The translations under genes were made by a program, and so were the position numbers. A DNA stretch of 8,833 bases from a bacterium (GTDB lineage Bacteria; Spirochaetota; UBA4802; UBA5550). Location: assembly GCA_024224995.1 (NCBI GenBank), contig JAAENB010000712.1:1-8833 (forward strand), written 5' to 3'. How positions within the stretch are numbered: the first letter of the stretch is position 1; each line of letters starts with the position of its first letter. Shown in pieces: positions 2,655 through 4,291 of this stretch. The notes under the pieces are model-generated. The model made no database searches and had not been told where the DNA came from. It saw only the letters and a list, made by a program, of their open reading frames with translations.

Positions 2655-2655
2655 C

Positions 2656-2695
2656 GGGAGTAGTTTATTTTTCAGGTGCGCTCGGGAATAAGTCT
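2656..2695. repeat. Half copy (remnant) of the palindromic repeat family
   Basis: This begins GGGAGTAG, like the terminal GGGAGCAG of the 172-bp element. Aligned with the reverse complement of that element's right end, it matches for about 40 nt with a few transitions and one 2-nt gap. The best-kept part is GGTGCGCTCGGGAATAAGTC, shared with 1567-1580 (inverse) and 4196-4215. The opposite arm is missing, so this is a solo end. It lies between the stop codon of the secreted protein and the asd leader promoter. Confidence 0.65.
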
Positions 2696-2720
2696 GAAAT
2701 ACAAAAAATTAAAAAAATAT

Positions 2721-2748
2721 TTGACAGAAACCATTGCGCAACTAGAGT
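2721..2748 (+). promoter_or_regulatory. Probable sigma-70 promoter of the asd leader
   Basis: TTGACA (2721-2726) is a perfect -35. TAGAGT (2743-2748), 16 nt downstream, is a 4-of-6 match to the -10 consensus. The -35 lies next to an A/T-rich stretch (2701-2720) that could act as an UP-like element. The start site would be near 2755, about 38 nt before the leader peptide ATG. A modest -10 is plausible for a promoter whose output is set mainly by attenuation. Confidence 0.55.
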
Positions 2749-2792
2749 GCCCAAACTTAATTGAACAAAAATTTAACAAGGAAAAATTTCTA

Positions 2793-2900
2793 ATGATTCG
2801 CAACTATACGCAAAATACTTTCAAAACAACGACGTACACATACACCACAACAGGTGTACATACTAATATTTTGCAGTGGCGATTATATACTCTTTTATAA
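2793..2900 (+). CDS. Threonine-rich attenuator leader peptide
   Basis: This is a 35-residue ORF with its own ribosome binding site, AAGGA (2778-2782), 10 nt before the ATG. Eleven of 35 residues are Thr. Codons 12-20 read TTTYTYTTT, so seven of nine are Thr, using ACA, ACG and ACC codons. The peptide then continues GVHTNILQWRLYTLL and stops at 2898-2900. Its product is unlikely to matter; the sensor is the speed at which the ribosome crosses the Thr run. The composition parallels the E. coli thr leader peptide, but without that peptide's Ile codons, so the signal should be threonyl-tRNA alone. Translation would be coupled to the alternative RNA stems that overlap codons 6-30 and to the terminator just before asd. 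An in-frame ATG at 2676 is ignored because it lies upstream of the promoter, inside the repeat remnant. Confidence 0.85.
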   Translation: MIRNYTQNTFKTTTYTYTTTGVHTNILQWRLYTLL

Positions 2901-2962
2901 AAATAGCGTAACAACAGCGATTTAAAAAAGCCCGTCTCTGCAAAACAGAGACGGGCTTTTTT
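2810..2962 (+). promoter_or_regulatory. Threonine attenuator: alternative RNA stems upstream of asd
   Basis: Three competing pairings can be read directly. The 1:2 stem joins GCAAAATA (2810-2817) to TATTTTGC (2867-2874), 8 bp perfect. It encloses a small hairpin, TACACC/GGTGTA (2841-2846/2853-2858). The 2:3 antiterminator joins TTTTGCAGTGGCG (2869-2881) to CGTCTCTGCAAAA (2933-2945): 12 of 13 positions pair, one of them G-U. The 3:4 stem is the terminator. A ribosome stalled at Thr codons 12-20 (2826-2852) would break 1:2 but leave 2869 onward free, allowing 2:3 to form and transcription to read into asd. With ample charged tRNA-Thr the ribosome runs through segment 2 and the terminator wins. 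A ribosome at the stop codon would cover only the end of segment 2, so release and refolding of 1:2 may matter here more than in the trp model. Confidence 0.8.
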
Positions 2963-2965
2963 TTT
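2924..2965 (+). terminator. Intrinsic terminator of the asd attenuator
   Basis: AGCCCGTCTCTG pairs perfectly with CAGAGACGGGCT across a CAAAA loop (2941-2945). The stem is extended by six A-T pairs and followed by an uninterrupted T run to 2965. It ends 38 nt before the asd start codon and so lies inside the asd leader transcript. Because of the A run on its left it could also work in the reverse direction, but no minus-strand gene ends here. Confidence 0.92.
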
Positions 2966-3003
2966 ATTTTTTAAATAAAAATTTCAAACTGGAGGTACAT
3001 ATC

Positions 3004-4092
3004 ATGAAAAACAAAATCAAAGTCGGTGTTATTGGCGCTACCGGGATGGTGGGGCAGAATTATATTCGCTTACTGGATGGGCACCCCTGGTTCGACCTGT
3101 GTTATGTTGCCGCGTCTCCGCGGTCCGCGGGTAAGACCTACAAAGAAGCTGTTGCAGGGCGGTGGCTTATGGATGGGCCGGTGCCGGAGCAGGTTGCGGA
3201 CCGTATTGTTCAGGATGCCGGGGACGTGGGCCTGGCCGCGGAGCACTGTGCTGCTGTTTTTTCCGCGGTGAGCCTTGAAAAAGAAGCCGTGCGGGAGCTT
3301 GAAACAGACTATGCCCGTCACGGGTTAGGAGTTATTTCCAATAACTCCGCGCACCGGTATACCGGGGATGTCCCCATACTTATTCCCGAGATAAATCCCC
3401 ATCATGTTGCGGTGCTGGAGTTTCAAAAGCAGGCGCATGGGTTTCAAAATGGATTTATTACGGTTAAACCAAATTGCAGCATACAGAGCTATATGATTCC
3501 CATCCACGCGCTGCGGCAGGCCGGGTTCCCGGTAAACAGGGTTATGGTTACCACGATCCAGTCCATGTCCGGTGCCGGGTATCCCGGTCCTTCGGGGCTC
3601 GATATGGTAGACAATATTATTCCCTTTATTCCGGGGGAAGATGAAAAATCGGAAGAGGAGCCAAAGAAAATATTCGGGCACCTTGAAGACGGGCAAATTG
3701 CTGCCGACACTTCTATGGCTCTTTCGGCGCAATGCAACAGGGGGCCCATTATCGACGGACACCTGGCCAGTGTGAGTATTGGATTTGAGAACGCGGTGCC
3801 CGGGAAAGACGAGCTTGCTGCTGTTTGGAAAGAGTTTAAATCTTATGCCGTTGAAAAGGGTCTGCCGTCGGCACCGGACCCGGCGATAATTTATTTTGAA
3901 GAAAACAACCGGCCGCAGCCGCGAAAGGACAGGAACGCGGGGAATGGGATGGCGGTGTCCGTGGGGAGGCTTAAAAGTTGTAGTGTGCTTGATTACCGTT
4001 TTGTGGGGCTGTCGCATAATACGGTGCGGGGGGCCGCGGGTGGGGCTATTCTTATGGCGGAGCTTGTGGTGGCAGAGGGGTATTTAGCTTAG
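3004..4092 (+). CDS. asd: Aspartate-semialdehyde dehydrogenase
   Basis: This 362-residue cytoplasmic enzyme reduces L-aspartyl-4-phosphate with NADPH to L-aspartate 4-semialdehyde, the branch point to lysine/diaminopimelate, threonine and methionine. The N-terminal Rossmann motif GATGMVGQ starts at Gly11. The catalytic Cys is C158 in VKPNCSIQS, and the active-site His is H253 in IDGHLASVSIGFEN. The C-terminal RGAAGGAILMAE (from about 342) is characteristic. Length and motifs fit the archaeal/fungal-like branch of the family rather than the enteric branch. The ATG has GGAGG at 2991-2995 with an 8-nt gap. The gene stands alone behind a threonine-type attenuator, so expression should rise when charged tRNA-Thr is scarce. 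The coding strand is clearly richer in G and C than the two genes to its left. All key residues are present and no frameshift is seen. Confidence 0.95.
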   Translation: MKNKIKVGVIGATGMVGQNYIRLLDGHPWFDLCYVAASPRSAGKTYKEAVAGRWLMDGPVPEQVADRIVQDAGDVGLAAEHCAAVFSAVSLEKEAVRELETDYARHGLGVISNNSAHRYTGDVPILIPEINPHHVAVLEFQKQAHGFQNGFITVKPNCSIQSYMIPIHALRQAGFPVNRVMVTTIQSMSGAGYPGPSGLDMVDNIIPFIPGEDEKSEEEPKKIFGHLEDGQIAADTSMALSAQCNRGPIIDGHLASVSIGFENAVPGKDELAAVWKEFKSYAVEKGLPSAPDPAIIYFEENNRPQPRKDRNAGNGMAVSVGRLKSCSVLDYRFVGLSHNTVRGAAGGAILMAELVVAEGYLA

Positions 4093-4110
4093 ACGGTTTT
4101 GTCGGGGTGA

Positions 4111-4130
4111 CGCGGCGCTTACGCGCCGCG
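4111..4130. repeat. GC-rich hairpin downstream of asd
   Basis: CGCGGCGC and GCGCCGCG pair perfectly around a TTAC loop, 18 nt after the asd stop. There is no T run, so it is not a standard intrinsic terminator, though it could protect or pause the asd transcript end. It is the first of three palindromes in a row. Confidence 0.6.
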
Positions 4131-4134
4131 GAGA

Positions 4135-4171
4135 GAGGGGGTTGAAGGGGCTGTGCCCCTTCAACCCCCTC
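4135..4171. repeat. Perfect 17-bp hairpin with 3-nt loop
   Basis: A run of five Gs, TTGAA, GGGGC (4137-4151) pairs without mismatch with GCCCC, TTCAA and five Cs (4155-4169) across the loop TGT. An A-T and a G-C pair extend the stem at its base. No T run follows. It is either a 3'-end structure for asd or a dispersed palindromic repeat; the sequence alone does not decide. Confidence 0.65.
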
Positions 4172-4177
4172 CACTTG

Positions 4178-4291
4178 CTTGCAGAAAATTTTGTTGGTGC
4201 GGTTGGGAATAAGCCTGATCTTTCCTCCGCCATCCGTGGCTCCTGCTCCGGAAAGATCAGGCTTATTCCCGGACAGAGTTTTTGATGCAAG
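4178..4291. repeat. Second member of the palindromic repeat family
   Basis: The core is a perfect 21-bp stem (4205-4225 with 4250-4270) around a 24-nt loop. The stem starts GGGAATAAGCCTGATC and ends TTTCC. The loop (TCCGCCATCCGTGGCTCC, then TGCTCC) is the reverse complement of the tip motif in the 172-bp element with few changes. The left flank GGTGCGGTTGGGAATAAGCC repeats the motif seen in the other two copies. Outer CTTGCA (4178-4183) and TGCAAG (4286-4291) may mark the ends, but no target duplication flanks them. No ORF is present. Confidence 0.65.

Follow-up and report, generated by a model that had tools for sequence, protein, structure and literature searches.

The enteric leaders trpL, hisL, pheL, leuL and ilvL share with the leader described here a design in which the position of the ribosome governs the pairing of a terminator arm, although they serve other amino acids and other genes; attenuators of Proteobacteria were reportedly surveyed by Vitreschak and others in 2004. 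The enteric Thr leader, thrL, controls thrABC, whereas the leader described here precedes asd, and, to our knowledge, the asd gene of E. coli has no attenuator. Passages of a study of Vibrio natriegens describe a thrABC leader that has Thr and Ile codons, five of each, and treat the two asd genes of this organism without mention of an attenuator (PMC12925634). According to passages of a study of His leader peptides in Bacilli (PMC2965389), Proteobacteria and Actinobacteria were the only groups in which leader-peptide systems had been demonstrated until that Firmicutes case, for which its authors weigh transfer or repeated origin. For the amino acid attenuator motifs of Rfam, a gamma-proteobacterial origin with few transfers is suggested in passages of a further paper (PMC3766115), and in those of another (PMC1262725) the threonine operons of Actinobacteria are reported to have no conserved RNA structures in front of them.

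The locus lies in a window of 8,833 nucleotides (the whole stretch of DNA that was analysed), in which a gene at 1656-2654 and asd, on the same strand and starting at 3004, are separated by 349 nt of intergenic space. This space and asd contain the following elements:

2721..2748, + strand: promoter-like site, TTGACA (2721-2726), 16-nt spacer and TAGAGT (2743-2748), 10 of 12 matches
2778..2782, + strand: ribosome binding site of the leader, AAGGA, 10 nt before the ATG at 2793 (read from the sequence)
2793..2900, + strand: leader peptide ORF, 35 codons including 11 Thr, start ATG 2793, stop 2898-2900 (sequence and shuffle test)
2793..2817, + strand: segment 1, the 5' side of the 1:2 stem; pairs with 2867-2886 and includes the leader start codon
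2841..2858, + strand: exact inverted repeat TACACC-ACAACA-GGTGTA, located in the Thr run and forming the inner hairpin within the 1:2 structure
2867..2886, + strand: segment 2, partner of segment 1 or, via 2869-2881, of segment 3
2924..2965, + strand: intrinsic terminator, 17-pair stem (2924-2940/2946-2962), 5-nt loop and T-run (2957-2965)
2933..2945, + strand: segment 3, the inner 5' arm of the terminator plus its loop; antiterminator partner of 2869-2881
2991..2996, + strand: ribosome binding site of asd, GGAGGT (read from the sequence)
3004..4092, + strand: asd, aspartate-semialdehyde dehydrogenase, 362 aa, by TIGR00978 (asd_EA)

The original prediction had described a 35-codon leader that has a ribosome binding site of its own and 11 Thr codons (seven of them in codons 12-20), a perfect 1:2 stem (2810-2817/2867-2874), an antiterminator (2869-2881/2933-2945) exclusive of the terminator, and a strong terminator (2924-2962) with asd after it, and each of these elements was recovered here. 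The leader peptide, MIRNYTQNTFKTTTYTYTTTGVHTNILQWRLYTLL, carries Thr at codons 6, 9, 12, 13, 14, 16, 18, 19, 20, 24 and 33, the seven within codons 12-20 (2826-2852) forming a Thr run with Tyr codons inside or near it (5, 15 and 17). Not one of 5000 dinucleotide shuffles of 2655-3003 gave an ORF with seven Thr per nine codons, two gave six, and one gave seven of any amino acid; the binomial P of the run for a given nine-codon stretch is 2.4e-8 at a Thr frequency of 0.05, as taken from the five genes of the window. ACA, the rarest Thr codon of these five genes (13/124), provides four of the seven Thr codons of the run, and ACC, the commonest (63/124), occurs in it once, a preference that could be partly explained by the A/T-rich intergenic DNA. 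A search for homologs of the leader peptide found none.

The core of the 1:2 stem comprises 8 bp between perfect complements, and the folded stem reaches 19 pairs by the addition of 2793-2805 with 2875-2886 across small bulges, an extension that had gone unnoted earlier and that covers the leader start codon. The extended duplex (2785-2825 against 2860-2900) has a value of -15.0 kcal/mol, with 3 of 1000 shuffles as good; a shorter test (2793-2825 against 2864-2881) was not significant, with 133 of 2000 shuffles as good. The antiterminator helix (-14.4 kcal/mol) is formed by 8 bp, one T-T mismatch and then four pairs including one G-U. For the duplex of the 2:3 region the value is -16.4 kcal/mol, shuffles averaging -8.2 (2/2000 as good), and a share of 0.73 of 2930-2945 pairs upstream, which 11 of 1000 shuffles matched. 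The inverted repeat at 2841-2858 could act as a pause hairpin or reflect constraint on synonymous codons.

The promoter-like site has an A/T-rich stretch directly upstream and is not significant by number (one found versus 1.7 expected from shuffles); transcription from it would start near 2755. At the other end of the leader, the GC core of the terminator (2930-2956) lies 29-30 nt, and its full stem 23 nt, from the leader stop; in an E. coli system, distances above 27 nt between stop and terminator permit maximal termination, according to passages of PMC4824070. The Asd protein scores 355.2 bits against TIGR00978 (cut-off 301.2). The next gene, which codes for an HD-domain protein, starts 275 nt after asd, and no terminator-like site was found between the two; by eye, the stretch 4110-4275 holds several inverted repeats, and no terminator-like T-run.

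The effect of ribosome position was calculated by placing the A-site on codon k and folding the free downstream RNA up to 2945, with five footprint offsets from 9 to 17 nt. At every offset the probability of the 2:3 pairing, P(2:3), is 0.91-0.92 with the A-site on codons 1-20, and it reaches 0.00 by codon 24 (offsets 15 and 17) to 26 (offset 9). Codon 20 is the final codon of the Thr run, the one at which, in the original prediction, a stalled ribosome would leave segment 2 just exposed. In RNA devoid of a ribosome, the 1:2 stem dominates as long as the 3' end lies at 2885-2940 (P(1:2) 0.82-0.97), the 2:3 pairing beats it when the RNA ends at 2945 (P 0.89), and the completed terminator prevails in RNA reaching 2962; this succession indicates that timing decides the outcome. 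At equilibrium the terminator (-48.9 kcal/mol) far outweighs the antiterminator (-26.2 kcal/mol), and antitermination must therefore be kinetic. A more general measure, how much of the terminator core pairs upstream, was computed for the window and six E. coli attenuators (thrL, trpL, hisL, leuL, pheL and ilvL), all six of which gave high values at the control codons and a fall just after them. There are blemishes in the controls, hisL climbing back to 0.75 at its stop codon and leuL to about 0.4 in mid-leader, and in the window, which climbs back to 0.41 at the leader stop codon. The no-ribosome value of the window (0.59) equals its stalled-ribosome value (0.60); given this, and the advantage of 2:3 over 1:2 at 2945 when no ribosome is present, the 1:2 stem would protect only if it is formed first and persists.

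In view of these results, we consider it highly probable that a ribosome-mediated, threonine-responsive transcription attenuator controls asd: chance would rarely produce the Thr run, the antiterminator or the extended 1:2 stem, and in the calculation the antiterminator is set free with a ribosome at any Thr codon of the run but not with one well beyond it. The original prediction of a Thr attenuator with the logic of the thr and trp operons is supported, all its parts being present and yielding a calculated switch. The locus combines the components characteristic of the class, namely an ORF with a ribosome binding site, a codon run that matches the pathway, a terminator and an antiterminator, to which calculation adds the dependence of the antiterminator on ribosome position; Thr, which the leader would sense, is among the end products of the pathway containing asd. 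The sequence and the calculation show the leader ORF and the terminator, together with the alternative pairings and the switch point.

We propose that a transcript starting near 2755 would encode the 35-codon leader peptide, and that a shortage of charged tRNA-Thr would make the leading ribosome stall in the Thr run (codons 12-20), where it would cover segment 1 or physically part it from segment 2. The freed segment 2 (2869-2881) could then pair with segment 3 (2933-2945) while the latter emerges, so that the terminator would be too late to form and RNA polymerase would continue into asd. With plentiful threonine, the ribosome would pass over segment 2 to the stop codon at 2898-2900 and block the 2:3 helix, whereupon the terminator would fold and transcription would stop near 2965. 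If the leader goes untranslated, the 1:2 stem would form first and enclose the leader start codon, an outcome likewise expected to promote termination. For the host, we infer that transcription and translation are coupled, that ribosomes stall on the Thr codons and that a physiological response ensues.

Real DNA was scanned for a Thr-rich ORF with a hairpin of -13 kcal/mol or lower and a T-tail no more than 170 nt beyond its stop. The set comprised 276 sequences, namely the window, fetched loci and six stretches of E. coli DNA, with 24,129 short ORFs on both strands of 1.38 Mb. Three Thr cases passed, with seven Thr in the window, six in E. coli thrL and five in L230, a weak case, and the window leader therefore stands out as thrL does. 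L230 was the single match among the homoserine dehydrogenase loci, of which the scan had 30 from each of two phyla, and was rejected as a Thr leader, being a weak match with five Thr and a hairpin of -13.7 kcal/mol. Irrespective of a terminator, seven Thr in nine codons occurred in one of the 14,871 short ORFs of 154 fetched loci (L060). The His version of the scan recovered E. coli hisL and the Phe version pheL, the Phe and Met versions each returning in addition one unrelated ORF (L072, L032), the listings for Phe, Met, Lys and Ile covering the stronger matches; the leu and trp leaders lay beyond the amino acids scanned. Against the Rfam family Thr_leader (RF00506) the window scores 32.7 bits (2883-2965) versus a cut-off of 55, with thrL, the positive control, at 122.1. 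Membership in this family was rejected, as the match is below the cut-off and mostly to the terminator; the opposite strand scores 28.1 bits, and PyrG_leader 32.0 bits at the same place. Since Rfam did not name the window leader, a filter for a codon run plus a terminator could uncover more of them.

In an Asd tree made by a quick method and leaving out loci with asd on the minus strand, the closest Asd proteins (P0002-P0006, 64-71% identity) form one clade with that of the window; in genomes, the best Asd among 80 of 528 confirmed relatives is 61% identical (L001). Two Asd relatives come from viral contigs (51 and 47% identity), and plasmid and phage records gave no Asd match of at least 60%. 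For the upstream comparison, 177 of 209 loci had an Asd match at E 1e-40, from which 126 distinct regions and 41 with minus-strand asd were obtained (four with less than 200 nt upstream), the 44 scanned loci of the latter kind comprising 41 new ones and three copies. Sixty further Spirochaetota regions, three of which repeat earlier loci, added 57, for 224 distinct regions, the Spirochaetota and Myxococcota matches being sampled in part. None of these 224, with Asd about 40-61% identical, has a comparable leader; L195 shows six Thr in nine codons upstream of asd with no terminator, and the other regions at most four Thr. A leader need not persist at such distances, so this absence limits a claim of conservation and not one of function. 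Among the neighbours, a SpoIIE-type protein has relatives from mixed phyla, the four window proteins other than Asd had no match among the 209 loci, and the HD protein was matched in 0 of 16 genomes, by a search that had no positive control and is uninformative alone. Separately, one Lentisphaerae MAG (L082 / G002) encodes an Asd 58% identical to that of the window, and 287 other genomes of its phylum gave no Asd match at E 1e-60; it might be a transfer or, alternatively, a misbinned contig.

Leaders of another kind precede asd in other genomes. In the phylum of L053 (titled Latescibacterota), 20 of 27 loci have a lysine riboswitch (RF00168) upstream of asd (L161-L170, L174-L181, L183 and L184; 70.4-108.8 bits, one match cut by a contig end), and in six of the seven measured a terminator lies about 29-33 nt before asd (92 nt in L166). 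It follows that asd is an attenuated gene elsewhere, via another sensor. A lysine riboswitch also lies before a Spirochaetota asd (L325:131-303, minus strand), in one among 20 sources. Three loci (L053, L172 and L173), which give no riboswitch match, share a conserved 31-codon Lys/Arg-rich ORF before asd, with a terminator after the ORF about 22 nt before the gene, and L182 resembles them; this ORF might encode a small protein or serve as a further leader peptide. In the window, RF00168 has no match at its cut-off or at E up to 10, with the 20 of 27 loci as positive control, and neither the T-box nor the asd RNA motif that Rfam holds has a match at the Rfam gathering score or among the 77 Rfam matches at E up to 10.

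These observations bear on other readings of the locus. Were 2924-2962 the terminator of the gene at 1656-2654, asd would have a promoter downstream of it and the Thr-rich ORF would be a product of chance, a reading in keeping with the common strand of the two genes, the failure of the promoter-like site at 2721-2748 to exceed shuffles and the absence of the leader from 224 of 224 other asd upstream regions. However, the terminator stem begins about 270 nt past the stop of the upstream gene and ends just 41 nt before the asd ATG, a promoter scan found no site between the terminator and asd, and both the Thr run (0/5000) and the antiterminator (2/2000) would be needed by chance, and we hold this explanation to be unlikely. 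Somewhat less likely still is that the leader peptide attenuates in response to another signal, such as a general slowing of translation, an antibiotic or nascent-chain arrest. The calculated switch would react to any stall in codons 1-20, the Tyr codons lie in or near the run, and a leader sensing ribosome-targeting antibiotics has been published (PMC12121999); yet seven of nine codons specify Thr, itself a product of the asd pathway, and asd is no resistance gene.

The least probable of the alternatives, and a very improbable one, has a repressor or a small-molecule ligand reading the repeat at 2841-2858 or the leader fold, the ORF being incidental. TACACC-N6-GGTGTA is indeed an exact inverted repeat, and lysine riboswitches occupy the same place in asd genes of other phyla, but the window has no Rfam match at or above a family's cut-off, the 77 matches at E up to 10 include neither lysine riboswitch nor T-box, and the repeat sits in Thr codons, so that a hairpin could arise from the choice of synonymous codons there.

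With attenuation by threonine as the preferred reading, the mechanism is already known from the enteric attenuators; asd as its target gene is new, and the lineage of Thr attenuation is probably new as well. The original prediction had considered a Thr leader on asd possibly undescribed, and our search of the open-licence literature likewise found no report of one. The chances appear to us evenly balanced that an uncultured, probably non-proteobacterial lineage independently built a pure-threonine attenuator and placed it on asd. If true, both the target gene and the origin would be new for Thr attenuation, and one branch product would set the supply to the threonine, methionine, lysine and DAP branches; since asd also feeds lysine, DAP and methionine, control by Thr alone would be metabolically odd. 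A complete asd Thr attenuator in such a lineage would favour the view that this simple switch has arisen repeatedly.

The leader of the window and thrL both encode Thr-rich peptides with similar gaps between stop and terminator (about 30 and 25, respectively), both have a like-looking GCCCG/CGGGC terminator with a T-run, and in both, by calculation, the 5' arm of the terminator pairs upstream with a ribosome on the control codons and no longer does so once the ribosome has passed them. They differ in that thrL has 21 codons with mixed Thr and Ile, whereas the window has 35 with a Thr run free of Ile, and in that the 1:2 stem of the window, unlike that of thrL, covers the start codon. The Bacilli His leader peptides before hisS/hisZ, as passages of PMC2965389 present them, represent leader-peptide attenuation outside Proteobacteria and Actinobacteria, as the leader of the window probably does, but in Firmicutes, for His and on aminoacyl-tRNA synthetase genes, compared with Thr and asd here. 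The lysine riboswitches share with the window an attenuator-like asd leader with a terminator; in them, however, lysine is sensed by an aptamer, with no leader peptide, and different lineages would thus place different sensors, a lysine riboswitch or a Thr leader, at the branch-point gene asd.
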